DNA of 64,000 bases from Actinomucor elegans (lineage: Eukaryota > Mucoromycota > Mucoromycetes > Mucorales > Mucoraceae), in contig JAMSLZ010000007.1 of NCBI GenBank assembly GCA_026027325.1, positions 1,736,001 through 1,800,000 of the forward strand. Reading direction: 5' to 3'. A model generated the notes under the pieces. The model saw only the letters and a list, made by a program, of their open reading frames with translations. It was not told the origin of the DNA and searched no databases. The position numbers and the translations under genes are program-made. Positions 13,481 through 38,098 of this stretch are shown piece after piece; positions within the stretch are counted from its first letter, which is position 1, and each line of letters opens with the position of its first letter.

Positions 13481-13762
13481 GGAGGTCATACAGATACTCG
13501 CAATTGTTGTACAATTACTCGTACAGGTTCTGGGTTAGTGGATGACCTCAGGTATTTACTCATGGGCATATTTTTGGCTGCTGTGATGTTCTCTGGATAT
13601 GTGTACCCATTTAAATGGCTATTTCCAATTTTTAAAACGGCTAAAAATATTTGGAACGCCGGAGACATATTGGATAACCGCATTCTACTACACCCGGTCA
13701 TCCACTAACCCAGAACCTGTACGAGTAATTGTACAACAATTGCGAGTATCTGTATGACCTCC
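13481..13762. repeat. Solo 282-bp LDR (MITE-like) with 66-bp inverted ends
   Basis: It starts GGAGGTCATACAGATACTCG and ends with the inverse of the same sequence; the inverted match runs about 66 bp. It is flanked by AAT on both sides (13478-13480, 13763-13765) and interrupts the mariner transposase; excision leaving one AAT restores the frame. The same 282-bp sequence, with its centre in the opposite orientation, forms both direct repeats bounding the large element 17658-31288. It therefore behaves as the solo form of that repeat. Confidence 0.85.
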
Positions 13763-15060: not shown

Positions 15061-15126
15061 TTAGGATGATGGGGCTGATTGGCCATCAGCTTGGCTTATA
15101 TTGTCGGTTTCCATATCCTCATCCTT

Positions 15127-17360
15127 GACGGATGTCTATAATTACTTTAATATTTATTTACATTTGGGATAGACTATTTTATTATGGATATGTTAAAAAT
15201 AATAAAATGTTAGAAAACTTTTATATTTTTATGATATCCTCAAGAAGTCCACATTACATTTAGGAATGAAAAACAACATCATATTTATGTTTCTCCCGAT
15301 ATATATACATATTTAGTAAGTTATAATATATCCGTCTACTATTATTATTTTATTACGTATTTTTAATTAATACGATTACGTAATAAGAATGACATGCCAA
15401 AATTATAAAATTATAATAGAAAATATTTTTAAATTAAACTTTATGATTATAATTATAATTTTCTTATTTTTAAAAAATTGTATTATAAAGAATTATACTA
15501 TCACCTGAAGAAAATTTAAAAATTATAAAATTCTTAAAACATAGAAAACTACAATTTTATTTCAAAACATACAATTACATCTATTTAAATTAAGACTTTG
15601 TATTTTTTGTTTTTTTATATATATATTTAATCATATTCGTAATCTAATGTTTACTATTTCTTTTAATTTCTAAATAATCACATTTATTGTTTATGTAAAT
15701 TGTTTGTCATTGAAAAATAAATATATTTATTTTCATTAAAACAATTAATGTTTGTTTACAAATAAAATGTCTTGGCATTTTATATTGTTACACAAACTAT
15801 ATCAATTATACTATTTTTATAAAAATGTTTTTAATGTTTTTTTATACTTTTTATGTTAAAATAATTAAATGGTAAAAAACAATTTTCAAAATAATTCATC
15901 TTTTTATATGCAATAAATGTTTTTATATTTTAATTTTTCTATTTTACATAATAAACGATTTTATTTTTGAAGTCAAAAACAAATTATGATTAATTAAAAA
16001 AAACATTTTTAACCTTAGATGCATAAAAATCTTTACAATTATGCAATTATTTTTATAATGTTAAATATATACACTACAATAAAATACATAAAATAAATAT
16101 TAACCCTATTACTATAGAATTATATAGTATCATTTAAAACTATAGGAATACATTAAATAGGTGATTTTTAATACAATTAAAAACAAGATTATAACTTGGA
16201 TTGATTATGTGTCATTGAATAAAAATATTTTTTATTTCATTCTATAATCAATGTTTGTTAAAATATATTTGATTATAAGTCAAAATATTTGTCACAAACT
16301 AATGGATTGTTATTAAATACATAAAGTAAAAAAATTAATATTTGTTTAATCATAGAATTGCATTATGTTTTTGAATTTGATTATTGACCATTTGCTTATA
16401 TAATCGTGTAACTGGCAATGAAAAAAAAAAGACGAAATTAATTTTATGTTGTGTATACTTTTTTATTAAAATTAAAATTTAATTATATAAATGGTGTGGT
16501 GAAATAGCCACATAATTGAAGTACAGACAGACTAGAGGCCTGTGCGCCCTAGCTGTAGCACATACATACTAAAGCATCATTGATTACCTTATACAGCGAT
16601 ACAGTCCTTAAACAGAGATACGTCCTTCTTATACTTTTTATATGAACACAAGTAAATAACCTTCAGTCACAATTCAACGAGTATAAATACAAGCTAGAAA
16701 AACTAGTTAGAAATAATTAATCACATTTAAGTTGAATAAACTATAACCAAGTTATAATCGACTTACTACCTGCTTTTATATTTTAATTTTACCGCAAATG
16801 GTATTTTACCAATATGGCAATGTTATAACTTATGATTTTATATATAGCAGAAATAATTAAATTATATATTAACTTTATAAAACATAAAAAACTATATGTT
16901 ATTCATCATGCACTACTAAGTTATAATTTAAGCACTGGATGATTTATTATATATTTTATAATTATGTTATGGAATTTATTGTTTTTTTATTAAATATATG
17001 AATAATTTTTACATTTCGTTAATTTATATTATTTCTCTTCTGATGGATTTATAATTTAAATCAGATGGGGTCTTTTTGAAAACAGATGTTGTTATGTGTA
17101 ATTATCTTTTTTAAAATAATAAGGCATGCAGCCTTCTAAACCTGATATAAGACGGATGTCTATAATTACTTTAATATTTATTTACATTTGGGATAGACTA
17201 TTTTATTATGGATATGTTAAAAATAATAAAATGTTAGAAAACTTTTATATTTTTATGATATCCTCAAGAAGTCCACATTACATTTAGGAATGAAAAACAA
17301 CATCATATTTATGTTTCTCCCGATATATATACATATTTAGTAAGTTATAATATATCCGTC
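15127..17360. mobile_element. Non-autonomous LDR element (210-bp direct repeats)
   Basis: Two apparently identical 210-bp direct repeats (15127-15336 and 17151-17360), each starting GACGGATGTC and ending ATATCCGTC, enclose 1.8 kb of AT-rich DNA with no ORF of note. The outer flanks are CTT on both sides (15124-15126, 17361-17363); the inner edges show no duplication. So the pair moved as one unit. It inserted into the LINE ORF1, whose frame is restored on removal. A 302-bp solo LTR has since inserted at 16495-16796. Confidence 0.75.
16495..16796 (+). repeat. Solo LTR, family D (302 bp)
   Basis: TGTGGTGAAATAGCC ... TTTTACCGCA with 5-bp duplication AATGG (16490-16494, 16797-16801). A close copy is at 33593-33893 and a divergent relative at 34249-34534, both with their own 5-bp duplications. 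No internal retrotransposon region accompanies any copy in this window. Confidence 0.85.
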
Positions 17361-17657
17361 CTTGTCATTGTTGGTACTAGTATTGTTGTTTGTGATTTCA
17401 TTGTATTGTAGATTGTATTGGTCGGTGTTTGTTCTAGTGGCGGTGGTGTGTTGCTCTTTGGTAATCCATTGTTTAGCTAGGAAGTCACGCGCTACAGCAA
17501 GTTTAACTGGAGCTGCGAAGCGTTGTATCAATCTAATAAGATGGTTTTGGTGAATGGACAGAGCCTGTTCAGCACGAGCGGCTTCGTCTAGAGTAGCGTA
17601 TTTTGGGTCTTTGAGAACTTCAGCAGCAGTGGGATCGAATTCCACCGTCTCTACACT

Positions 17658-17939
17658 GGAGGTCATACAGATACTCGCAATTGTTGTACAATTACTCGTA
17701 CAGGTTCTGGGTTAGTGGATGACCGGGTGCAATAGAATGTGGTTATACAATATGTCTCCGGCATTCCAAATATTTCTAGCCGTTTTAAAAATTGGAAATA
17801 GCCATTTAAATGGGTACACATATCCAGAGAACATCACAGCAGCCAAAAATATGCCCATGAGTAAATACCTAAGGTCATCCACTAACCCAGAACCTGTACG
17901 AGTAATTGTACAACAATTGCGAGTATCTGTATGACCTCC
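17658..17939. repeat. Left 282-bp LDR of element 17658-31288
   Basis: Same orientation as, and by eye the same sequence as, the repeat at 31007-31288. It carries its own 66-bp inverted ends (GGAGGTCATACAG ... CTGTATGACCTCC). The inner junction goes straight into the inner inverted repeat (TAGTGGG). Confidence 0.85.
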
Positions 17940-18082
17940 TAGTGGGATATCTCACCACACACTGGTAGACATACGTTCCATAGCAAGGTAGTAGAGAGGG
18001 GGGGGGGGCCAAAAGGGATGATCTTGTCCAGAGACCTGAATAGTTTCAGCCCCCCTGGGAATGGAAACTAAGGAGCCTAAGG
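17940..18082 (+). repeat. Inner terminal inverted repeat, left
   Basis: 143 bp beginning TAGTGGGATATCTC and ending GGAGCCTAAGG, including a run of 11 G. It matches 30864-31006 as reverse complement, including the homopolymer length. Confidence 0.85.
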
Positions 18083-18138
18083 TTGTAGTACGAGTAACAT
18101 GTGTTGACAGTTGGGCGAAGCTTTTAAAAAACAAGTAC

Positions 18139-19807
18139 TCATACGTTGGTGATCTCGCATTCTACATCACGAACACCACGTACTTTCTTTACTCGAATTA
18201 TACAAACATAGAACAAGGTATGCTTCTCTAGTTGCTTCTCTACAACTTGTTTTAAACCTGGACTGCAACGGACTGAGGTACCATTGGACAGCCGTAAGTG
18301 GAGATAGTTCTTACTTCGGAATGTACCATAACCATATCCGGTTACTTGGTACTTCACACCTACTTTCATGAAAGAATAATCTGGTTTAGCTCCAGACACT
18401 GGGAAGGGATCTAGATGCTGTAATAGTTTATCATCATGTGTCTCCTTGGCCAACCTGATGGTCGCAAGTTTATCTCCTCTTTCAGGTCGCAGTCTACTTT
18501 TTGGCCATTCGAGGGTGATGTTGCGGAAAGAACAAATCCCTAAATCACCAAAAGAAGCTGCTTTGTTGGTTAAATCCTTTCTATAGGGTGTTAAGGAGTT
18601 AGATATCCCTGGAACCAACGTGATGGCAGAACATCCTTCTTCACGACGATATATGCTGTCTTCGAGTATCTTATATTCATGACTATTCTTCTCAAACTTA
18701 ACTACCAGATAGTGGATGGGCCTATCGTTAAAGCTAAAGTTTGCAAGATGGAGCATTACGTACTCTTCTGGTACTTTTGTATGAATTATGCCTTGCATTC
18801 GCTTGGTAAGGGAGTTCCACCAATGGCAGTAAGCGAAAGTCTTTGTTTTGGGAACATATAGCTGCCATTTGCGTAAGGTTCTTAGCTAGTTGCTTCCATT
18901 GTCTGTCGAAGCTGACCTTGTATGTTGGACAATTATCAAGGAACTCAAGGACCCTAGACATAGTTTTGGTATAATAGCTTTCCTTCTTGAGTTGGGTGTT
19001 ATAAAACGTAATTTCTATTCTGGTCATACCATTACCACGATACTTATTAAGGCGCTCTTGAAAATCTTTGTCAGGGTTAGAAACCAAGTGGTGCAATTGG
19101 GAGCCGATTAAAGACCTTAATTCACGGCTTTCAAGCATTTGGACAAACTTGTTATAGATCTTTATTCGTAAGGGTATCTTAGCACTAGAACTATCATGCT
19201 GCCTCCATGATAAGCAGTTATCACCGACTGAGTGACGATCGTTGACAATATCTTTATCTTCTACGCCATTAGAAGTAATGTACTCCTTAATAATATCGCG
19301 TGTTGATATGTAGGCGCAGTCGATGCTTATATCCAAGTCATGTAAAAGGATATAATTCTTTGCAACCTTACAGCATATCTTCTTAAGCTTTGGCCACAGT
19401 TCCCCATAGCTGATATTCTCAAACGAAACTCTCAGCGATATATAGCCTGGCTGGTATTTATCCCAGCTAATACCTGATTCTTTTGCCTCCCTTTGTTGGA
19501 TGTCGTTGACAAGTTTATCTTCACCAGCATGCCATTTACCCCTACCAGTGTAAAAGAGCTTGAACTGCTCCACTTGTAGGTGACGGGATAGAAGAAGCCG
19601 AAGAATGCTCATGTACATTCCTACAGCAGAACTTAGCTTCTCTTGTTCCCAATGTACAGCACACCAGAAGACAATGCTGTCGCAGAATACTGCGCTAACA
19701 TAATCCCAGCCCACACGTTCTCTCGTCGCGCTACCACAAGTGTAATCGACACCATAGATATTACTAAGGTATTGGTTGTAATCTATAAAGATTTTACTAA
19801 GGGGCAT
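18139..19807 (-). pseudogene. Second protein of the LDR element, unrecognised; one frameshift
   Basis: Frame 19807-18734 runs about 357 residues, and the downstream frame ending at 18139 adds about 220. A one-base shift near 18850 would join them (reading KWQLYVPKTKTFAYCHWWNSL) into roughly 560-570 residues. I do not recognise the family. The blocks LHDLDISIDCAYISTRDIIKEY, KIPLRIKIYNKFVQMLES and NGMTRIEITFYN recall the order of motifs in replication-initiator (Rep_trans/phage gene II-like) proteins, but no clear HUH motif is visible, so this is only a resemblance. It starts 97 bp downstream of the DDE gene on the same strand. Programmed frameshifting, a real mutation or a sequencing error are all possible. 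Confidence 0.5.
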
Positions 19808-22306
19808 TGTGTAGTATATGCTTAGAATATGCTACCATGTGCTTTAAAAGGCTTAAATATTCCATATATTTTAACAAGTTTTAAAAAACATCCCCTTGTG
19901 GAACCTACTTCTTCCGCCTTCTTCTAACGTCTTTCTCATACTCGATAATAATATCAGAGTCGTCGAAGTTGTTAGGAGAAAGCCAACTATTGCTACTCTC
20001 ATCATAGCCTACCCACCTAACCAAATACTCTCTACGATGCTTTGGTCCACGATGCCCAACAATGGCCTCAACCTCGTAGTGTCCTTGTGGTAAGTCCTCG
20101 TCGATGGGTTCGTCATCAGAGCCATTATCTTCGTTCACCCCCAAAGAGAGAAACTGCTGCTGTATTTCTTTTACCATCTCAGCATCTTGGGACTTTTCCG
20201 CAATTGTAAGGGTACTTACTACGTCATAGACATTCTTACTGCTGCCATTTGGAAAGTCGAAGTTAGGCTGCATCCAAAAAGTATGTTGTTCAGAGCTAGA
20301 AACACACCCAATGTTAACAAACTTCTTGATGTTTGCAAGAAGACATGCAAGCTTGAACTGTACCGTGAATGTCTCCATCTCGGTAACTCGAATAACGCCT
20401 TTACCGTTGAATCGTTGAAATAAGGTTCCAATCTCTCCAAACGTTGCTTCTATCGAGGAACGAAAGCTTCCAAGAATGGAGTTGTAATTAACTTCTTCTT
20501 GTTTCAGACCCACTCCTCGAGACTTACGGATAGGGAATACAAAATTATGGCGATCCAGGTGACGATTATTTGCTACAATACGATCTATAAAAGTAGTGTA
20601 TCCACCATCAACGACAACACAATCGTACTTACTAATCTTCTTCTTCAACCGCATATCAGCAAGCATAGACCCATCGTTGTTATCTGAACATGGTGCCGCA
20701 TCGGAGACAAACAACACCATCCCATTAACATCTGTACATACTTGTGTTCGGAAGCCAGACTTCTTAAGCTTATACGAATAGAACATGGCATGATCTGCAG
20801 CGTTGATATATGTTGCTCTAGAATCATGTCCATCTATCATCAAGGTAACATGCTTAAAATCTTCAGGGTTTCGGTGAAGAGCACACATAATTCGCAGCTT
20901 TGTTGAGGAGAACATCTTTCGTAGGCAATAGTCCAAACAGGTATTCAGCTCCTCTCCGTATTTTGTATAAAAGGCATTGTAAATAGCATGGTAGCTACTA
21001 GAACACTATGGCGAAAATATTGTCGGTTTTTTGCCCAAAAGTTGATAATATTAGGGGTAAAATCGACTATAGTTCTGCTAATAATTATTGTCAATTTCTA
21101 GGCAGTGTTTTTTCGGCGGTTGATAATATTAGTGACTCTTATTCGATAATATTATGGGTAAATACTATAATATTAAGGGTTTTCCTTCAATATTATTATG
21201 GGTAAATTGTATAATAGTAGTGGTTTCCAGTCAATAATAGTATGGATTAATCCCTCCATATTGATGATTTATAATCAATATTATTATTAGTTTTCTATCA
21301 TATATTCACAATACACTACTAATAATATTATAGTCATTTTGGTTATTCAGATAATAATTTAATTGCTATTTTTTTTATTTATATAATATATAACTTCAAC
21401 AGATATTACTCTAATACACACTAGCCTTCAATAGCTGAATATACAATAACCAGCTTTCTATCACACACGAACAGTATTTAACTTACCTTATTGTCATACA
21501 AGTATAAAAGAATTTATGTCCCACTGGCAAGTAACAGGTAAATGAATTAAGCAAATAACTGTATAAATAATGTCAGTTATCGTTGATGAAACAATATTTT
21601 AAGAGTATATTTGAACTAACCTTTAGAAGAATGGCCCACGCTTGTATAATAGCATATTTTAATCATCTTTTCCTAAAGTAAGTAATGATTAGATTCTTGA
21701 ATGAAACTCGCTATTGCTACAGACTTACCAACACTATATCAGACACAATCAATTATAATTCACTGGGCTACAGTTTTAATAGTCTTCGTCTTGTATATAT
21801 ACACAACTAAATCTATTATAACAGTATTAGATTAATATACAAAGAAATTAATGGATTAGTAATCATTGCACTTACTTAATGGTTATTAGCTTTAAAACTA
21901 ATAGTAAAGGTTCAAAAGCTATATGGCATTACTGGCTATAAGTATTACTGAAGTGGTATAAGTATTTAAGAATACAAGTCAGTATAAGAATATAAGCAGT
22001 ATGAATGACGACGTATTTATAGATAATTACGACATTAAGAACGAGGGAAATATTCGAAAGCTTGGAAAAAAAAACACAATTACAAGCTGACATTGAGGTT
22101 AATTCCTATTATACAGAAGCTTCAGTTAAAGTGTTGTGCGCAATAAGAGTGACAAATGTCAAGAAACCTTACGTTTAATGTGCCAATTTAGCAAACGAAA
22201 AAAAAGAAAGAAACTCAAGATTGGTGTAAAAAAGTTTTTCTTAATACTGAAAAGCCGCAGAAAAATGCTACGTCAGCTACTTAAACCAATAAAAAAACGT
22301 CTATAT

Positions 22307-23389
22307 TTATTTCGTTTTTTTTGTATTTTTCTTAGAGCGTGGTTTACGCTTATTGGAATCCGCTTCTTTGGAACGATTGTCAGATCCAGCCTCCTCATCT
22401 TCACCAACGTCAGGTTGAACCGTAATGGCTTTTCTTTTCGTTGATGAGCGAGCAGAATGTAGATCCAACAAGCTAGCAATTGGAGATGCAAGACCAACTG
22501 GAGCAACAGAAGTAGCTAGACGATCAACAAGGATATGCTGATTATCCACACTATTTGCATAACAAGCATATTAATAAAGATATAAAAACAGAAATAAAAA
22601 AGCATCTAACCTGAAGAACGATTCAATCTCATTGTCTTCAACAGATTCTTGATTTTGTTGACTTTCACCTTCTTCAGCAGAATTACTTCTGGTACGTACA
22701 GTCTTCTTGTTTTTGAGTGCTTCAGATAAAAGTAACTTGGCAGCCCACATCTCTACACAGAGATGCAGATGCAAGCCCACATCTAAAGCACGTTTCTCTA
22801 AAAGCAAAGCATAACGTTCTTGAATGCTGGTATCCTCTTCGCCAATTTCACTCCAAGTTTTACCAACAATATTTATATTTGCCCTTTCCATGTCTTTCAA
22901 GACATCTCTTGCCAAGTATTTCAACGTATTGTATTGCGGTTGAACATCATCATCGGTCAGTTCATTTTGTTGGCCTTTTATATACTTGAGGTGTTTCAAG
23001 AGGGCATATAACCTTAATGGTGCAGAAGGGGTGACATTTGTCTTGGTTGCCTTTTGTTGATAACGCACTTTTGCTTCTTCTAGCACTTTTGGGATTGACC
23101 GTTTACTACGTAAATTAGGATTCAAAGCATTTGCAATTGCTTCTCGTTCAGCTATATATGACAAGCTAAGAGGTTAATAAAACTGAATGTAGTAACATGC
23201 TTCAGATATGATTGTACCATCGTCAAGTGCTTGTTCAATTTCTTCGTTAGATGAAACCCTCGAAGCTTCTCGAGGAAATAGAGGTGCTAATATTTGGATC
23301 AAATCTTGAATTAAACGACGGTTGATTAAGATTTCTTGTTCAATCTTCTCAAAGTAGACGCTCCAATTATTGTTGTTGTTGTTTGACAT
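22307..23389 (-). CDS. CACTA second protein (TnpA-like position), three exons
   Basis: Exons 23389-23197, 23151-22611 and 22550-22307 join in phase to 326 codons (325 residues). The introns are 45 nt (GTTACT...TATAG, a weak donor) and 60 nt (GTTAGA...AATAG). The protein starts with an Asn run, has helical N-terminal and central parts, and ends in a Lys/Arg-rich tail with KRKPRSKKNTKKTK, a likely nuclear localisation signal. No known domain is recognised. By position, divergent from tnp2 inside the same element, it may be the DNA-binding partner that plant CACTA elements encode as TnpA; that role is inference. The copy at 63115-64000 is almost identical. Confidence 0.7.
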
Positions 23390-23794
23390 AGCTATAAAGT
23401 AAATATATTATAAAGAAAAGTGATTGAATGATTTGAGCTATTTAACTGTTTTATAAGCGTACTTTACCATTTATCCATTAGTAATCCTTACTAATGTCCA
23501 AAGAGCTTTCTGGAAAGTAAGCTTACTGACAGGTATGACTGACTTGGAAAGGAATTAGCTTGATTAGAAATCATAAGGATCCATTAAAATGTATTCGATA
23601 TCTGAATAATCTGGAAGGCTGAGTAATATGAAAAGCTGATTAGTTCAAAGGATTCAACAGCCTAAAACAATGAATTACCATTGAGAACTCTGTCAATTGT
23701 AGACCAAGCAAACGTATTTAAGACCTGCTTTTTCTAAACAACAAAACCGCTATTCATTAATTCGATATATTTACTTGTTTTTACTTATCTTTAA

Positions 23795-26767
23795 ATGGGC
23801 AAAGTTTCCTCTTCTGCTACACCATATAAATATACTTGCGCTACTTGTTTGAGGCCATTCAAAACTGTTAAAGCTAGGAGTAATCACTATAGCCATAATC
23901 GTGATCATAGAAAACAAAGGGTCGTCCAAACGCAAGAAGCTAGCATTCCTGTCCAAGGTGAGTTAACAGATATATTACTAAAGCTTTTAATTTAACAATA
24001 TACCTTGTTTGAAATAGAGCCTACTCCAATTGCTTACAACGTCAAATCCTCGGATCAAAACCTTTTCACCAATACGGAATTAAATAGCATCCAATTGAGA
24101 GATATTTGCGACACGTATGGTATTCCTCGAGAGGCTCAAAGAGAACTTGTCTATCTAATGCGTACCATAATCAAAAACAATGAAGAGAGCCGTAAAACCG
24201 ATGGATTGGGTATGTATCTATTCAAATAGAGTTAAAAAAAAAGTACTTATCAGCTTTTATTCCCATTATATATAGGTTACCTACCATCCACTCTCATGTT
24301 CCCTGATACCTTGGATCGTACTCTTAAAGCAAAAACCAATATTCAATGTCATTTTCATGATGTCTGCGTCAATGGTTGCATGCTGTTTGAAAAGGAAGAT
24401 ATAGAGACTATTCAATGTAAAAACCCTGCTTGTAAAGAAAATCGCTTTGATGATCATGGTAAACCTCGTCGCTCTATGAAGATGCTTCCTATTGGTGAAC
24501 AAGTCGCTCAAATGCTTGCGAATGCAAAGACAAGAGACTTGATGAAATACCGCTACAACTATAAATCAACTGACGGTGAATATAAAGATTACTTTGATGG
24601 TGCAGCATACAAGTACTTTAAGGATAATAGCATTCTGTTTTCCGGTGAAGATGATGTCGCAATGGTTCTTTTTGTCGATGGTTTCTGTACTAGCAAGAAT
24701 CATAAAGGGGACAAGTTAACAATCATCCATCTCTTGAATATGAACATTCCCCCAGAATACCGCTACCAAGACGAATACATGCTTCAATTGGCGATCTTGC
24801 CAGGTCCAAACTACCCAAAGTACATGCATACCTTTTTAAAGCCTATTATTGATGAGTTTCATGCTCTGTCTACCAAAGGCATGCTTGTACAAAAGGATGG
24901 TGTAATTGTTTGTCAAGCTAAAGTCAACTTGGTGATGGCTACTGGTGATCTTCCTGCTGCAGCTGAGCTTGCAAATCATATTGGTCATATGGCTACGTTT
25001 GGTTGCCGTATTTGTCGTGTCCAAGCTGAACGTCATGATTATCATAATTGTTTTTTAACGATCGACAATGAGATCAGAAGCAGAAACGATTTCATTTCCC
25101 CAGATGCAGCGAATGTAAGTACTATAATCAGCATTAATCTTTACAAGTTTTTAACATTTCTTTTTCTTTTTACCTCATAGAGCTACAGTATCAAGTCTGC
25201 AACACCATTTGCAATACTTCCCAGTTTTACTGGCGCTACTTTTTTTGGTTTAGACGAAATGCATCTTCTCGGACAAGGTATCGCTCAACACGTATTCAAT
25301 ATGCTGACAGTCGACATGGGTAAAGAGTACAATGCAGCAAGAAAAACTCGATATAAGCCCAATGAAGATGAATTGAGTGATGCCCGATTGAAGTCTGCTG
25401 ATGAATGGCCGTATACTTTCTATATTCCAAAATTATCGCTCATCAAAATTGGTAAACTTGTTGAAGCTTCTAGAGCCACTGTACCGACATCCTTTTCATC
25501 CAAATGGGAAGATCCAATTATCAAGAGTGGTGGCAAACGTGCTGTTGACTGGATTGATATTTTCTTATATATGATTCCCACCTTGTTCGTTCCTGAATTG
25601 ATTCAAGAATCCGCTAAGAAACCATTGATTCATCTGACAAAAGCTGTCGCATTGGCTCTTAAATGGGAACTTTCTATTGAAGACCTTATTCTGATGGAAA
25701 GGTAAATATATTTTTTTTGTACTCATAAATCTAGTTTACTTACATACTTTCCAAAGATATATCAAAGAATGGCAAGAATTTTTGTTGGCAGAAATCAAGG
25801 CAAAGCGTATTCATTCCGGTGTATTCAAGCCTGTTCAACACTACCTTTCGCATATAGTCTATATGATCAAACAACAAGGTGTGTTGAGAGCATATTCCGC
25901 CCGATCAATGGAAAGAAGCATCGGAAAATACAAAAAGCTCATCAAGTCAAAGGTTGATGCTGGCGCAAACGCTGGTAATATCTTGGAAAGACTCATAACG
26001 CGTAATCATATAAACAGCCAGACTTGGGATGTTCATACTGAGCTTGACCTGATCACTCCTCGAAAATACAGCGAATCCACTTTCAGGAATAACCCTTCTG
26101 GTGATGCTAGTGATCCACAATTATGGGCTCCCTTTAGTAATATTTCAGTGGATACTCTTCCCTTTGGTGTCTCCACTCAAACTTTTTTGAAGGCGCTATT
26201 GCATTACTATCGCCGTACTGAAGCAAATGGTGTAAATATTGCTGAAATTGATTCGTTGAATAGTATTTCCATCGCTGGTCGTGCCTGGGCATATGGCAAT
26301 GTATATACGTCTACCATGTATAAAAGCCATATAAATGAATATCGTCGAGGAAACAATTACGTGATGATCACTGCCAGCTACTTGAAGTAAGTAATTAGCT
26401 CAAGAACAAAAACCTCTTTGATTAACCAACCTTTGTTAATAGTCGAAATAATTCCATTCGTGAAAGCTGGTTCATTGGTTCTATCGTTTTCTTTTTCGAG
26501 CATTCATTCAATGGTAGACCACAGTATTTGGCTTTGGTTGATTTAGCGAAAAAGAATGCAACTACCAAATATGACAAGACTATTGCTTTGGTTGAGCTGC
26601 ACAGTAGCGGTGCACACAGTTACGCTGTCTGTCGGTTTGAAGATATTGTTGCCAGTGTAGGTCTTGTGCGTTCAAGTGAATCTAATGAGAAAGAGTTCAA
26701 GATCATCTCTCATCATATATTTAAACAAGATCTAGAGCAAAATGCTGGCATATTAAGTCGTTTGTAA
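23795..26767 (+). CDS. CACTA transposase (tnp2 family), six exons
   Basis: Exons 23795-23957, 24018-24209, 24276-25114, 25181-25701, 25757-26386 and 26443-26767 sum to 890 codons (889 residues), all junctions in phase with GT...AG introns of 55-66 nt. The N-terminus holds a C2H2-like zinc finger (YTCATCLRPFKTVKARSNHYSH). The core shows tnp2/Transposase_21 blocks: VLFVDGF (probable first catalytic Asp near residue 253), IIHLLNMNIPPEYRYQDEYM, LAILPGPNYPKYMHTFLKPI, then a Cys/His cluster HIGHMATFGCRICRVQAERHDYH. The tail is helical and basic. No stop or frameshift is seen, so it may be active. A promoter presumably lies in the 0.4 kb shared with the divergent gene. Confidence 0.93.
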
Positions 26768-28382
26768 ATAGCATGAAGACAAGAGCAAAAAGCGTTTTAT
26801 TTTGAAATAAAATTGTTCTCTGAATTGATTATGTATTTAAACCACCGAAAATAATATAAAGCTTCCCTCCAAAAGGACTTCATCATAATATAGCAAAAGT
26901 AAAATAGGTATTTACACTTTCTGTAGTAGATATAAACTATAGATAATTTAACTCGTTTTTATATATCATGTTATTAATTCGAGAGAAAGGTATTAGCAAT
27001 CTTGCAACAGAATGTAAAAACATTTCTTAATCAAAAATTTAACCCATTTCCCTGATGTTTAAGAAATTATTTCATAATATCAGAAATATAGAACCAGGAT
27101 AACCCAAGTTATACAGTTCTATATTCATCATTCAATAATGTTAATTGACTATTTAGTTGCTCCAGTTAATCTTTAAAACCAAATGTAAAATATGATTAAT
27201 GCTCTTGTTTATCTTTATAGTAAAATTAGTTTATTATCAAGCAATGCGGATTAATTTTCCAACAGACAGCAAAAATGTTCATCGATTGTAGTTTTCTAGC
27301 ACCTAAAAAAACGTGCATGTTTTTGAAGCTTTCGATCGTCATTAAGAATTCTATCATAATCATCAATTACTCGAAAGTCCAAAAACGAACGCGTTTTTTT
27401 GTAGTTTGAGAAGTGGATATATGATTTTGACAATAAATCATCTAGTTAAATAACCGCCTAGCAATAATGACTAAGATTACTGGCAATTAATAATCGCTAC
27501 TTGACCTATTTTTTTTTTTACACAATAATTTATCTCTTTTTTTACGCAATATATTTCTTTTTTTTTACGCAATGTATTTCTTTTTTTTTAACGCAATGTA
27601 TTTTCTTTTTTTCTTTCTTTCTTTCTTTATTCTATAATTTTACTAAACATAAAATTGAGTAAATTAGACACTTAATGGCAGCTCATTCTTAATGTCATTC
27701 AGCATTTTAAATACACAGCTATTAGCCAAAGGCTAAATCACGGCAATGAAAGTGCTCAGCTTATTAAATGGAACTAGCGATTCGTTCTTGTTTCCAAAAG
27801 AGTAATTTACAAGAGAATTTTTTGCAACCTGACCTGTATAAGAGACTTTTCAACGAATAATAAACGCATTTGAAAGACAATTGTTCAACATTATTTTTGA
27901 CAAACGTTGAAATTAAACGTTTCTAGGAATTTACATAAAAGATCGTTGAAACGAAAAGCAGAGTTCATTTTAGTAAATAAAATAAACGAGGATTATGTTG
28001 TTGCGTACAAGCATCAGAATTTCATGTACTCATTTATAAGAAGTTTGCAAGATTTGGCTTTCATCGGCAAAAGACAAGAATACATAAAAATTGTTTGCAA
28101 ATAAAATGGAGTTCAGGCTTTTCTTTCTTATTGTCAATTTATGTTATAATATTGACTAAACCCATAACATTATTGTCTGCTTTCCACTAATATTAGGAGT
28201 AACCACTAATAAATGAGCAAAGCACTGTTAATTGCGCAGCCATAGAAAATAATTGCTCTAATTTCATTGGTTCGCAGATTATTATTAGTAGGTAAATCTA
28301 TAGTATTAGTAGGTAAATGATAATAAAATCGTCGTTTTACCACATAATATTATGGGTAGCACACAATATTTTCGCCATAGTG
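26768..28382. other. CACTA 3' untranslated and subterminal region
   Basis: AT-rich. At about 27510-27630 there are imperfect tandem units of the form T-run plus ACGCAATGTATTTC, ending in a CTTT microsatellite. A 65-codon frame at 27907-28104 has no supporting feature. The last 250 bp carry the short ATAATATTA-type repeats and the right inverted end. Confidence 0.6.
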
Positions 28383-28614
28383 GAAGGGATGAAACGTGCC
28401 ATATGCGCAATAGAACAACCGGTAAGAAGCTGGTAGATTATCAACAATCCTTTGTCCACGTTGGAATATGGACCAGGATATTCGGATGTATCCCAAAGGA
28501 ACTCTCAGGTCCATATTGAAACTCCTACTACCACAAATTTTATTGTTATATGAAAAAATTGAATTTTTTTTACAAATTAAAATTAAAAATAAAAAGGATT
28601 TAATAAAATTGCAG

Positions 28615-29494
28615 ATGTTTATAGAACCATATAAATCTTTAAAAAAATATTCGACGATGAAAAAGAAGCACTATTATATTTAATTAGTAATGATTACGTT
28701 AATAAACATATAAAGTGTAATAAATGTGAACATGAAACTAAATTAAACTTAAATAAAAAATTATATGTTTGTAGATATTATAAATGTAGGAAAGCAATAT
28801 CACCATTGAAAGGAACAATTTTTAATAATTTAACTTTACCTTTAAATACTCAATTACACATATTATATCTTTTTCTTGGAAAAGCACCTTCTTCCTTTAT
28901 AGCATCAAGTTTGCAAATTAGCAAAAATACAGTGTCATCATACAATAAAATATTCAGAAAATACTTGAAAAATAAACAATTGTTAGGTAACAGAAATATT
29001 AAAATTGGAGGTAGAAATAAAATTGTAGAAATCGATGAAAGTAAAATTGCAAAAAGAAAATATAATAAGGGGCATAAGGTAGAAGGTGCTTGGGTAATTG
29101 GTGGTATCGAAAGAAGTATGCTAAAAAATAAAATAAAAATGAAAACAAAAAAATGTTTTTATTACCCATTGAAGAAAGAAATGTTGATAATATTGATTTA
29201 ATTATAAAAAGATATGTAAAAAAAGGTACAACAATATATACGGATTTATGGAAAGGGTATAATAACTTGAAAAATATAGGATACAAACATTTAACTGTAA
29301 ATCATTCAAAGCATTTTAAAGATCCAAATACAGGTGTGCATACAAATACAATTGAAGGCACATGGAATGGCTTAAAGCAAAGTATAATACCACGAAATAG
29401 AAATAAAAAAGATATAGTATTGTATTTAAAAGAATATCAATGGCGTAAGAAAAATAGAGAGTATAACGTATGGAAAAAGTTTTTAAAGGATTAA
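28615..29494 (+). pseudogene. ISXO2-like transposase, copy A, two homopolymer frameshifts
   Basis: Aligned by eye to the intact copy at 53102-53983, it lacks one A in the run near 28640-28647 and one A in the run near 29138. The motifs VEIDESKIAKRKYNKGHKVEG, TTIYTDLWKGYNNL and HTNTIEGTWNGLKQ are otherwise present. Both lesions are in A-runs, so either replication slippage or base-calling error could explain them. Confidence 0.88.
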
Positions 29495-29764
29495 TTTTAA
29501 TTTACATAAAAAATGCAAAAAATTGAATTTTTATATTTATTAAAAATATGATAGAAAATATATTGATAGTTATAAATGTGAAATGCATATTTGATATTCA
29601 TTATTCTTATTACAAGGACCTGACTAAGTCAGTAAACTAGCCTATTTAAGACACAATGATTATGTAATAGATCAGAGACAATTGGGTATTACATTATGAG
29701 TGGGATTAAATATATCTATTATAAAAAAATAAAAAAATTGAAAAAGTAATAATATAAAAAAGAA

Positions 29765-30061
29765 ATGGATGAAATATTTAATATTATTGTAGATGATAAA
29801 TATAAATACAATATTAAACGAAGTATAATTATAAAAGATATGAAAAAATATGATTTAGCAGAATACAAAATAAAGCAAAAAGATGGGTGTTATGAAATCT
29901 ACATGAAAAAAAATGGTTCAAATAAAAGATTAAGAAAAGTATATGAATTTAAGACATATAATAAAGATAAAAACAAAGGTATAAAAAGAAAAACATTAGA
30001 TAATAAGAATAATATGATACTTGATGAAATCGCACCCATCATGAAAAAACTTAAATTATAA
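29765..30061 (+). CDS. Conserved 98-residue accessory protein of ISXO2 copy A
   Basis: A small Lys-rich protein (starts MDEIFNIIVDDKYKYNIKRS, ends with a basic KKLKL tail) encoded 270 bp downstream of the transposase on the same strand. The same 98 codons recur unbroken in copies B and C even though the transposases of A and B are frameshifted. I do not recognise it. The basic tail suggests nuclear or nucleic-acid association; that is inference. Confidence 0.6.
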   Translation: MDEIFNIIVDDKYKYNIKRSIIIKDMKKYDLAEYKIKQKDGCYEIYMKKNGSNKRLRKVYEFKTYNKDKNKGIKRKTLDNKNNMILDEIAPIMKKLKL

Positions 30062-30863
30062 TTTAAATATATTTTCTAAATTAAATTTTTCAATATATAT
30101 TCCATTAATTTTAACATTTATATCATGCTGATAATTATTATCTAAATTAAATTTTTATTTTCTAAGTTTTTTATTTCTTCCTTCACAATATCTATTTCTA
30201 ATAAATTTTCATTATATTCATCATATGAGAAACATTTTAAATATAATTTTATTGTTATTATATATTTTTAATTAATATTTTTATTATCTATTACTTGATA
30301 TATAAAATTAAATAGTTTTAATAGAAAAACAAAATAAAATATTGAAAATAAAGGAAAAAGTAGAATTTATGATAAAAATATGAAAAAAAGAATTATTTTA
30401 GAAATTAGTAATAGTAATTATTTAAATACTTTTTGATATATTTATTGGTCATATTAAAAGCTTAAAAAACAAAAAATGTTAAGCATTTCCCTATGAAGTG
30501 TAAAATAAAATATTATGTATTATTAGTATAAATTAAATCTGAGACCTCGTTTGGTAATCACCCGGATATTCTTGGTTTGCAAACAGCTCTACGAGAAAGA
30601 AAAAAACAGGTATGTAGCCAAGATGCTCCAACACATAAGTTTTTACATGCTGGATATCTTTTACAGGCTTAACCTCAGATCGGTGATACTTAGTCTTTTC
30701 CAACACTGGCCAATCTTTAGAAAGAAACTGCCAGTAAGTCGCCATAAGCAACGTAAACGCATCTACTATTTCTTTCGGAAACATGTTTATTTAAGAATGC
30801 TGTAGTATAATAGGAGTTGTATGCTACCAAATGCTGTTGTTCACTCCCAGTCCTACAGTGTAG

Positions 30864-31006
30864 CCTTAGGCTCCTTAGTTTCCATTCCCAGGGGGGCTGA
30901 AACTATTCAGGTCTCTGGACAAGATCATCCCTTTTGGCCCCCCCCCCCTCTCTACTACCTTGCTATGGAACGTATGTCTACCAGTGTGTGGTGAGATATC
31001 CCACTA
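30864..31006 (-). repeat. Inner terminal inverted repeat, right
   Basis: Reverse complement of 17940-18082. It ends GAGATATCCCACTA immediately before the right 282-bp repeat. Confidence 0.85.
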
Positions 31007-31288
31007 GGAGGTCATACAGATACTCGCAATTGTTGTACAATTACTCGTACAGGTTCTGGGTTAGTGGATGACCGGGTGCAATAGAATGTGGTTATACAAT
31101 ATGTCTCCGGCATTCCAAATATTTCTAGCCGTTTTAAAAATTGGAAATAGCCATTTAAATGGGTACACATATCCAGAGAACATCACAGCAGCCAAAAATA
31201 TGCCCATGAGTAAATACCTAAGGTCATCCACTAACCCAGAACCTGTACGAGTAATTGTACAACAATTGCGAGTATCTGTATGACCTCC
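31007..31288. repeat. Right 282-bp LDR of element 17658-31288
   Basis: Direct copy of 17658-17939 with the same internal orientation. The flank ACT (31289-31291) matches the left flank of the whole element. Confidence 0.85.
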
Positions 31289-31751
31289 ACTACTGATCTT
31301 GAGAATGTTTATTACTTCCTGTGCATAGTCGTTGTGTACCAGGATGGAGTGTATATTTTGGCCTGGTGTTTGAATATCAATAATTCGTGAAACCATAATG
31401 CCAAGTCGACGAAGAGTGTGTTTAATGGTAGTGATAGGAGTTTTACCACGACCAAAGAAGGAGATTATCCATTGATAACCTTGGCTTGTGGCAACTGGAA
31501 TGAAGGCACGGGCAATAATCTTGCGTTGTTGCTTCGATAATGGGCGACGGGAAGGTTTTTTCGTCGTTGGTTGAGCATTAATACCTTTCTGGACCATCTT
31601 CAAATATGAGGGTTTCATGATCGGTACTTCGCGAGGAAGAGGAGTGTAGTCTGGATTGGCATATTTCGATGCTAAAGTTCCTTGATTTTGATCATCCATA
31701 TTCACATCGTCAGAGGTGCTGTCAAACTGTGGTATGTTAGGTTGTTGATTG

Positions 31752-33541: not shown

Positions 33542-34100
33542 TGTATAACCCACGCGTTATTCGATATTCAGGTCTTATCTTGAGATACACTCTGTGGTGA
33601 AATAGCCACATAATTGAAGTACAGACAGACTAGAGGCCTGTGCGCCCTAGCTGTAGCACATACATACTAAAGCATCATTGATTACCTTATACAGCGATAC
33701 AGTCCTTAAACAGAGATACGTCCTTCTTATACTTCTTATATGAACACAAGTAAATAACCTTCAGTCACAATTCAACGAGTATAAATACAAGCTAGAAAAA
33801 CTAGTTAGAAAGAACTAATCACATTTAAGTTGAATAAACTATAACCAAGTTATAATCGACTTACTACCTGCTTTTATTTTTAATTTTACCGCACACTCGA
33901 TACTACTCGATAGTATGATGCCACGTGTTCCTTGAGTAATGATTATTGGCTAATAGTTCTAAGGATGACACATCGCTTGTATTTTTATGCAGGCCTCGTT
34001 AAAATCTGATTGGGTTATCAGATAGAGTCCGTGTATGACATAAATGAACAGTTGATTCCTTACTATTATGTCGATGCAAGATAGTAGATGGAATACAACA
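33542..34100 (-). repeat. LTR-like repeat, family B, second copy, split by a solo LTR
   Basis: Reverse copy of 8929-9175: TGTATAACCC at the left and GAATACAACA at the right, interrupted at 33593-33893. Confidence 0.55.
33593..33893 (+). repeat. Solo LTR, family D, second copy (301 bp)
   Basis: TGTGGTGAAATAGCC ... TTTTACCGCA with 5-bp duplication CACTC (33588-33592, 33894-33898). It differs from 16495-16796 by only a few bases. Confidence 0.88.
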
Positions 34101-35754: not shown

Positions 35755-35757
35755 TTG

Positions 35758-38095
35758 GACGGATATCTACAATTAATATATCTTTTAAATCTATTGTATA
35801 TGTCCTATTTTTTTTAATATATCCATATATTTTATAATTTATAACTTTTTTTCATGAATTAAAATTATTATTAAGTATAATAAACATTATCAAGAAGGCA
35901 ACTGTTCCATTTTGCATGAAAAAGCAATATTATATTTATGCTTTCTCCTAATATACGTACCAAATTTATATGAAACAAGATGTCCGTCTTCTATAACATT
36001 TTAAATTAGTTACTTACTATTCCAATATATATTAATACAATCAAAACTATTAAATTTACTGTAATGTATCCATGAATTATCCTCATCACTGTAGTTTTGC
36101 CATTTCACAAGGTAATAACTATCTTCGACTATTAACCCTTTATGATCCAAAATAGTTTCAATTTCATAACTTTCATTATTATCTATATCTATTTCCAAGT
36201 CCATTTTCTCATTATTATAAATATTATTATTTTTAAAATGAGCAATATTTGATAATTCTAATCCTAAAAATTGTTGCTGTAATAATTTCATTTTATCTAA
36301 ATTGTTTATTCTTTCATTTAACTTTGGAAGTGATTTATAATTTTCATTATTATTCAAAATATCATTTTTGTATTTAAAATCAAAGCTATCATTAATCCAA
36401 TATGAATGAAAATCACTATGTTCTATATTGTTTAGTTTAATATATTTTTTAAATTAAAAAGGACACATGCAATTTTTAGTTGAATATTATATATATTTAT
36501 ATTAGTAGTTAAAAAAGGTTTTTTGTTATTTAATCTTTTAAAGATACATCCCAAATCTGAGAAAGTTTTTTCCATTTTAGACCGAAAACTTCCAAATTGA
36601 TCGTTATAATTTATTTCAATTTCATTTAAGTTTATATTTTTATCTTTTCTGATAGGATATACGAAGTTATAGTCATTTAGATCAGAACTATTTATTATAT
36701 TATCTACGTATAGGCTATATCCTCCATCTAATGCAATACAATCCATCAAATTTAGTTTATTTTCAATATTCATATTTATAAGCATAGATCCATCATTATT
36801 AGTACTACATGGTTGACTGTCTGATACAAATAATACCATACCATTTGTATCTATTGCAACTTGTGTTCTAAACCCATTTTTTTTAAGTTTGTAACTATAA
36901 TATATGGATTTATCTTCTGCACCATATACCATACCTCTTTTATCATGGCCGTCTAAATGTATTGTTACTTGATTAAACAAATCTGGATTCTCTATCATTC
37001 CATTTAAAAGTCTAATTTTTATATTTGAAAACATGTTTTGTAAAGAAAAACTTAAAATCTTATTTAATTTTAACATTCTATCTGATGAATAAAATTGTCT
37101 GTATATTTGATGAAAAGTACTTTTTGATATATAATCATCCATATCTTCAATTGATATATTCTCTACTATAAAATATAATATCAATAAGCCTTTTTCTATA
37201 TTATTATATGGTCCTCTATAATCTCTATCTCCAAATAATATAACTAGGAAGAAATAAACAGGTATTATTCCTAACTTTTCTAATAAAATCTTTTTAATTT
37301 CTTTGATCTTTTTAATAGATATAATCTTTTTAGTGTGATATTTTTTTTGTTCAATCTCTGGCCAACCATAATTTAAAAATTTCCAATAATCATTTGTTAG
37401 AATCTGATACTCCATTAATAAAGTATCCTTAACATTATTAATATTATCCATTTGTTCTTTTTTATATTGAGATAAATTCAATTTTTTATAACTTAAAATA
37501 AAATTAATAATAATATATATACATTATTATGTTTTAGAAAACATTTTTTATTTTGAAAAGTTTGAAGTAATTCTAAAATTTATTAATTTTATATTTTGCT
37601 TAGTCAGCAAAATTGTAAAATCAATTATTTTTTTTGAACTTTTTATTAATAGACAGATTTATAAATATTTTGTGTTACACAAAATATAATAAATCCTAAT
37701 TGTTTTAAAGAAATAGAAAATATAAAAAGTTCACAAATTGTGAACATTTTTAATTTTCATGGAATGACAAACAAATTGATAATTTGAAAAGAATTGTAGT
37801 GTTAAGCTGATTTTATAATTCAGAATTTTATAGCAACAGAAACATTTCTCTATGGTTATAGTAGACGGATATCTACAATTAATATATCTTTTAAATCTAT
37901 TGTATATGTCCTATTTTTTTTTAATATATCCATATATTTTATAATTTATAACTTTTTTTCATGAATTAAAATTATTATTAAGTATAATAAACATTATCAA
38001 GAAGGCAACTGTTCCATTTTGCATGAAAAAGCAATATTATATTTATGCTTTCTCCTAATATACGTACCAAATTTATATGAAACAAGATGTCCGTC
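35758..38095 (-). mobile_element. LDR element with DDE-chromodomain transposase (231/232-bp direct repeats)
   Basis: Direct repeats 35758-35988 and 37864-38095 (GACGGATATC ... GATGTCCGTC) are flanked by TTG on both outer sides (35755-35757, 38096-38098). The interior carries one minus-strand gene, a DDE transposase with chromodomain, and its inner edges read TTCTATAAC and, inverted, TACTATAAC. The plan matches 17658-31288 with unrelated repeat sequences and without the second gene. Total 2338 bp. Confidence 0.75.
36010..37481 (-). pseudogene. Harbinger/IS5-like DDE transposase with chromodomain, one frameshift
   Basis: The first frame (37481-36432, 349 residues) has an N-terminal helical region, then VTIHLDGHDKRG (Asp), MDCIALDGGYSLY (Asp) and FGSFRSKMEKTFSDLG (Glu). 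It ends at a stop created by a one-base loss in an A-run near 36440. The shifted frame continues KYIKLNNIEHSDFHSY and ends at 36010 with a chromodomain (YEIETILDHKG, DSYYLVKWQNYSDEDNSWIH). Domain order equals that of the gene at 19905-30784. The protein sequence is much more Asn/Ile/Lys-rich. A single lesion means it may be only recently inactivated or a base-call error. Confidence 0.85.
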
Positions 38096-38098
38096 TTG

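Follow-up and report, generated by a model that had tools for sequence, protein, structure and literature searches.

The closest described system is KolobokP, a DNA transposon of animals reported in 2022 by Kojima and Bao and presented, in the part of its description available, as unlike any other DNA transposon: a core with a DDE transposase lies between two long terminal direct repeats (the LTDR-INT-LTDR plan), each with its own short inverted tips, and short target duplications, solo repeats and multimers accompany it (PMC9587614). On the same partial account, KolobokP has as its own features a Kolobok transposase, a His-Me homing nuclease, repeats of ~450 or 660 bp and cores missing a repeat (PMC9587614). 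Here, a window of 64,000 nucleotides from the fungus Actinomucor elegans (assembly GCA_026027325.1, contig JAMSLZ010000007.1, positions 1,736,001 to 1,800,000) was read inside the 36.5-Mb, 27-contig assembly (C numbers denote contigs), and three units in it, A, B and C, consist of a core between two long end repeats (R-core-R). It is likely (probability about 0.8) that these units are Harbinger-like DNA transposons of Mucoromycota, with a DDE_Tnp_4 transposase carrying a chromodomain, that insert as an R-core-R block, a reading that includes recombination between the repeats, flipping of the family A repeat and recombination promoted by a nickase.

The preliminary description of the window had suggested a new architecture, but KolobokP already has this plan, at least as far as the accessible text describes it (PMC9587614). 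What is new is the kind of accessory gene in one family of a second direct-repeat lineage, that of Mucoromycota with a Harbinger-like transposase and chromodomain; no direct-repeat DDE architecture besides KolobokP was found in the open-access literature, Repbase not included. The A. elegans elements share with KolobokP the long direct repeats with inverted tips, the DDE core, the solos and the short target duplications, and the second DNA-cleaving enzyme in its core, so far as reported there, may be likened to the predicted Rep_trans-like nickase described below (PMC9587614). They differ in the DDE_Tnp_4 domain with chromodomain, repeats of 210–401 bp, the fungal host, an invertible repeat in family A, an accessory Rep_trans-like protein confined to a single family, and the lack of any core end without a repeat among 40. 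The Pfam DDE_Tnp_4 assignment speaks against a Kolobok-type transposase, no Kolobok-specific model having been run, and no His-Me finger nuclease was matched among the frames scanned, which did not include every small frame. With the PIF/Harbinger elements (PHIS group) the units share the DDE_Tnp_4 transposase and 3-bp duplications, and they differ in their long direct terminal repeats and C-terminal chromodomain; no Myb/SANT-like partner scored above cut-off in the frames scanned, a SANT-type match in one of 59 members of the accessory protein family (E 0.11) being taken as noise. Bacterial composite transposons, as outlined in the accessible text of the same source, likewise move a core with two direct or inverted end modules, whereas here the enzyme lies in the core and not in the modules (PMC9587614).

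Outer duplications, inner edges and empty sites

The repeats and coordinates given for the three units in the preliminary description, their single outer 3-bp duplications and the lack of one at the inner edges were all confirmed, and the Harbinger-like DDE gene that it placed in two units carries DDE_Tnp_4 and Chromo matches in both A and B (Table 1). Across the genome, the outer trinucleotides are equal in 42 of 46 testable units from eight families (A 16/18, without the L108 unit, whose right repeat is interrupted; B 19/21; C 2/2; and 5/5 in F2, F3, F5, F7 and F10, one unit each). As agreement is expected by chance at 0.021 per unit (binomial p ~1e-65), coincidental flanks, which the preliminary description had named as a refutation, are ruled out. 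The mismatches comprise L126/L127 and a triple unit on C21 in family A, and L042 and L043 in family B. A duplication at the inner repeat edges was seen in no unit read.

The inner edges are invariant within the large families, TAGTGGG / CCCACTA in A and TTCTATAAC / GTTATAGTA in B, and are exact mutual inverses (TAG/CTA, TTA/TAA and others) in six of eight families, with B off by one base and C by two. PIF/Harbinger elements prefer TWA or CWG targets; the outer duplications here (ACT, CCT, ACA, CGG, GGT, AGT, CTT and others) show no such restriction, and at the inner edges TTA, TAA and TAG make up most of the trinucleotides. The core ends of A, B, C, F2, F3, F5, F7 and F10 start with T[TA][ACG] despite the arbitrary outer duplications. 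This inner pattern may be left over from Harbinger targets of the TWA type, or may have a function as a signal.

Empty sites, for which the preliminary description had proposed a search, exist, including those of two window units. In the whole genome, the site of window A is uninterrupted at C3:16801-16960 (160 contiguous bases, 99%) and also on C22 (96%), and that of window C at C22:1925523-1925679 (97%), with a target copy on C22 that lacks both A and C. A search limited to fetched sequence, where misses are uninformative, found uninterrupted paralogous sites for nine of 20 B pairs and four of 17 A pairs queried, the pairs at 98–100% identity, and for some solos. Of 42 candidate A-core termini, 40 were scored, and every one of them meets a repeat at the same base, so that repeat and core act as a single element. 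That the whole R-core-R block enters in one event, with a single outermost 3-bp duplication and its inner tips fused to the core, is thus well supported by these sequence comparisons. The transposase would bring the two outermost tips together, the left one of the left repeat and the right one of its partner, then excise the block and paste it elsewhere.

Table 1. Features of the three units and a solo repeat, in positions of the window (TSD, target-site duplication)
Feature	Position	Strand	Basis and remarks
Unit A (R-core-R), 13,631 bp including two nested transposons	17658..31288	-	Transposase on minus strand; TSD ACT at 17655-17657 and 31289-31291; paralogous empty sites
Left A repeat, 282 bp	17658..17939		67-bp perfect inverted arms, 148-bp middle; sequence comparison
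Right A repeat, 282 bp	31007..31288		Identical to left, same orientation; sequence comparison
A core, left terminal inverted repeat, 143 bp	17940..18082	+	Core-termini comparison
A core, right terminal inverted repeat, 143 bp	30864..31006	-	Core-termini comparison
Rep_trans-like accessory gene of A	18139..19831	-	Two overlapping frames in window copy; frames and homologues
A transposase, C-terminal part (DDE_Tnp_4 and Chromo)	19905..21003	-	Pfam match, copy comparison
A transposase, short middle piece	28383..28483	-	Between both nested insertions; copy comparison
A transposase, N-terminal part	30560..30790	-	Frame and copy comparison
Nested transposon with Transposase_21 (Tnp2) gene	21004..28382	+	3-bp overlap at edges; Pfam match, copy comparison
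Second nested transposon	28484..30559	+	No Pfam match over cut-off; frames, copy comparison
Unit B, 2,338 bp	35758..38095	-	TSD TTG at 35755-35757 and 38096-38098
Left B repeat, 231 bp	35758..35988		Sequence comparison
Right B repeat, 232 bp	37864..38095		Single-T difference from left; sequence comparison
B transposase (DDE_Tnp_4 and Chromo)	36013..37451	-	One frame break in window copy; Pfam match, frames
Unit C, 2,234 bp, no long open reading frame	15127..17360		TSD CTT at 15124-15126 and 17361-17363; paralogous empty site
Left C repeat, 210 bp	15127..15336		Sequence comparison
Right C repeat, 210 bp	17151..17360		Identical to left; sequence comparison
Solo A repeat	13481..13762	-	Seven differences, flanks AAT/AAT; repeat comparison

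Compared with the other copies, window A reaches 13.6 kb only through the two transposons nested in its transposase gene, the second of which we take to be Merlin/IS1016-like; copies without interruption measure ~4.16 kb. The B transposase is open over 480 aa in the genome copies L035 and L039. A long terminal repeat (LTR) retrotransposon was rejected as an identity of the units, there being no reverse transcriptase in the main frames of A and B and no stop-to-stop frame of at least 70 aa in C. A 295-bp repeat has two window copies 98% alike (16495-16789 and 33593-33887), one of them inside the core of unit C.

Families sharing the plan

Genome counts of the repeats are lower bounds. Family A has at least 124 tip matches, or ~62 repeats, and family B at least 60 left tips and 23 pairs, all direct; a second pair of family C lies on C10 with flanks TAT/TAT. 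The preliminary description had asked whether pairs recur at fixed spacing with 3-bp duplications, and they do: A pair spacings recur near 3.88, 2.12 and 1.19 kb (longer where interrupted) and 19 B pairs measure ~2.34 kb overall, with four longer. The counts of units, pairs and solos exclude, in family A, the repeats L096 (57 bp), L109, L119 and L122 (partial or truncated), two interrupted repeats, a copy on C24 and some four repeats on contigs C25-C27; in family B, they exclude the right repeats of both L047 and L054 (end unmatched), the solo L060 (right end unmatched) and the L063 pair (truncated left repeat). Among 19 aligned B copies, 18 lie 0–4 positions off the majority over the whole unit, the exception being L047 with its broken right repeat; single-base homopolymer indels, which may be assembly errors, were not used.

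Searching the genome with the B transposase recovered many families at 38–46% identity, of which eight were examined through one copy each. Direct terminal repeats with equal outer trinucleotides bound F2 (288 bp, ATA), F3 (239 bp, ACT), F5 (220 bp, AGA), F7 (401 bp, CTG) and F10 (223 bp, CTT), and F8 has direct repeats of at least 155 bp, its left outer end lying outside the sequence read. F4 has no terminal repeat and F1 (L071) an inverted one, 210 bp long, which adjoins another repeat-bounded stretch with no duplication readable, and F1 was left without an assignment. DDE_Tnp_4 is matched by each of the eight transposases, that of F10 falling just short of the cut-off (24.3 against 24.8 bits), and Chromo by all except that of F2. 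The R-core-R plan is therefore found in nine families of the genome (A, B, C, F2, F3, F5, F7, F8 and F10). In a rough tree whose root is untested and some of whose supports are low (0.14, 0.25), F1 and F4 have direct-repeat families to either side of them, which makes an early origin of the plan within the lineage probable.

A stem-loop whose stem bases vary is common to the repeats of B (38028-38051), C (15271-15292) and F8 (L136:85-108), with stems AAAGCA/TGCTTT, AAACA/TGTTT and AAGGCA/TGCCTT around a 12-base loop; it was given no role, as 26 (B), 74 (C) and 22 (F8) of 200 shuffles fold as well.

Several elements are nested or share a site. At C12:3673977-3676765 an A repeat is interrupted and contains an F8 transposase gene, and the B element L034 lies within an A transposase gene, its rejoined flanks matching window 20222-20341. 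Two B units with 8.28-kb spacing, L049 (C3) and L050 (C21), differ in their outer duplications (TGA and TTA). The B pair L033 (C4) and the B solo L057 (C11) occupy the same position in target copies ~79% alike (aligned via L054), with duplications CAA and CTA, and probably arose from separate insertions into a single spot.

Solo repeats and the orientation of end repeats

Single repeats without a core are also present, and equal trinucleotides flank 11 of 12 in B and seven of ten in A, where four identically flanked copies were counted once. Such solos fit recombination of older elements and independent movement of a miniature inverted-repeat transposable element (MITE) alike. The preliminary description had offered a composite of two MITE copies as one reading and independent insertion of the repeats as a refutation of a unitary element; the inverted ends of every repeat do suit a composite, and the duplications around solos do suit independent insertion, but the 40 of 40 A-core termini joined to a repeat go against the former, and the footprint of the latter is equally what recombination of two direct repeats produces. 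In full, the composite alternative has the repeat as an independent MITE moved in trans, two of which by chance bracketed a core, the accident then being amplified and the solos being MITE insertions. Besides the inverted tips and the flanked solos, it could draw on solo L053, which has exact uninterrupted paralogous sites, and on the variant 99G>A, common to six of 12 B solos and lacking in the 45 core-joined B repeats read, as would suit a separate MITE subfamily. We nevertheless consider it quite improbable: a plan common to nine families is hardly accidental, repeats that departed by cut-and-paste should have left cores with one repeat, which the 40 A-core termini do not show, and the A solos with identical flanks (L080, L091, L097 and L112) resemble one insertion copied within another repeat.

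A related possibility is that the repeat is a MITE and that a core enters an existing solo through homologous recombination of an R-core circle, the outer duplication dating from the MITE. This would account for the single outer duplication, the lack of an inner one, the solos and the multimers, and entry of this kind is put forward as one KolobokP route in the text available (PMC9587614). It appears highly improbable here, since old solos should have received cores too and yet 99G>A occurs in none of the 45 core-joined B repeats read, and since the near-uniformity of 18 of 19 aligned B copies over the whole unit is what block transposition predicts. Because no A core without a repeat was found, a recombination origin of the solos is favoured. 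Under block insertion, recombination between the two repeats would mainly keep pairs identical and yield solos, by analogy with LTRs. Multimers, as the available KolobokP text reports them (PMC9587614), have one counterpart in family A at C21:2358212-2366250 (L116-L118), an R-core-R-core-R array with cores in opposite orientation and unequal outer flanks (TAA/ACT).

The orientation of the repeats, a feature that the preliminary description overlooked together with the Rep_trans-like gene, differs between families. With the C21 triple excluded, 11 of 19 A units have direct repeats and eight have inverted ones, and all four loop states relative to the transposase occur (seven -+, six --, five ++ and one +-; no gene was located in two of the units, both symmetrical). 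As paired A repeats lie 0–1 bases from the window copy (the truncated L119 aside), the middle of the A repeat seems to invert faster than its bases change. No flipped repeat occurs among 23 B pairs, on which basis flipping of a whole repeat by the transposase was rejected for B, and B repeats are without long arms. Because near-identical A repeats show every orientation and the arm-poor B repeats are never flipped, recombination between the 67-bp arms is indicated, which would explain A and B alike: the arms would let the middle invert in place, so that direct and inverted forms interconvert. Foldback (FB-NOF) elements resemble family A in that their transposase core is set between long end modules with internal inversion; the A modules differ in being single 282-bp stem-loops found in either orientation.

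A Rep_trans-like protein in family A

In its uninterrupted 4.16-kb form, the A element has a gene besides that of the transposase; its frame is open across all 556 aa in six copies, and it has homologues in other Mucoromycota and Mortierella, with named protein relatives in Mucor hiemalis, Thamnidium, Cunninghamella, Apophysomyces, Rhizomucor, Mortierella and kin. In Rhizomucor pusillus, one predicted protein (P0087) joins DDE_Tnp_4 and a weak Chromo match to a following Rep_trans-like region. The motifs listed for Rep_trans proteins in the sections of the literature available are N' (D), I (RxD), II (T/SxY/ExG), III (YxKxxE) and IV (W/LxRxE) (PMC5714925, PMC6499999). In the accessory protein, D43, D163, Y218, K220, R263 and E265 (D, D, YxK, RxE) are invariant in 59 of 59 homologues, lie on strands and follow the published order N'-I-III-IV, with departures in motif I (DxxxD without R), II (unclear), III (Q for E) and IV (a variable residue for W/L).

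Structure comparison points the same way, at weak scores: the Rep_trans fold ranks top in Foldseek for the whole protein and the domain, and VIA places it first for the domain and 21st when given the whole protein. The closest solved folds include 4cwc and 4cij, and in the VIA domain search 4cij is aligned over 176 residues, compared with 79–150 for the other 49 matches listed. The sole PHROG match was phrog_702, 'replication protein', to residues 133–288 of homologue P0013. The Pfam Rep_trans model (PF02486) did not match the accessory protein, a Rep_trans family search of the genome found none, and neither a viral-contig scan nor a phage tblastn returned a relative; a PDB sequence search gave none with the accessory alignment and two unrelated weak matches with P0013. 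The protein thus resembles Rep_trans rolling-circle nickases, a kind of enzyme known from bacterial plasmids, and, having the residues of a tyrosine nickase, is a putative one. It shares the order of catalytic motifs with Rep_trans initiators and MOBT relaxases, as these are described in the portions accessible, and differs from them in its eukaryotic transposon setting, an extra C-terminal half and the lack of a Pfam match (PMC5714925, PMC6499999). It might instead be a ferredoxin-fold DNA-binding partner that does not nick, its motif match being coincidental, which is unlikely given six residues fixed in all 59 homologues on strands in the published order, the long 4cij alignment and a phrog_702 match to the same region. 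Searches of the open-access literature for Rep_trans proteins in transposons of eukaryotes gave no other case.

Within the proposed mechanism, the least certain step is that nicking by this protein would promote recombination between repeats, the making of circles or the element's own copying, a role comparable to one proposed for the KolobokP homing nuclease in the text available (PMC9587614). More tentatively still, family A may be a hybrid element in which a DDE transposon is combined with a rolling-circle-type tyrosine nickase acting on the end repeats or core edges to give R-core circles, to rebuild R-core-R or to copy the element, although we regard this as doubtful. Automatic repeat annotation could mistake elements of this plan for LTRs or MITEs. 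With dozens of near-identical A and B copies and exact empty sites, which of the four tips the transposase uses, and why the inner ones go unused, is directly testable. That two or more DDE lineages, each with its own transposase, have LTR-like direct ends calls for an explanation in terms of function, and if the hybrid reading were true, DDE lineages of animals (KolobokP) and of fungi would independently have come to combine direct terminal repeats with a second enzyme that cleaves DNA.
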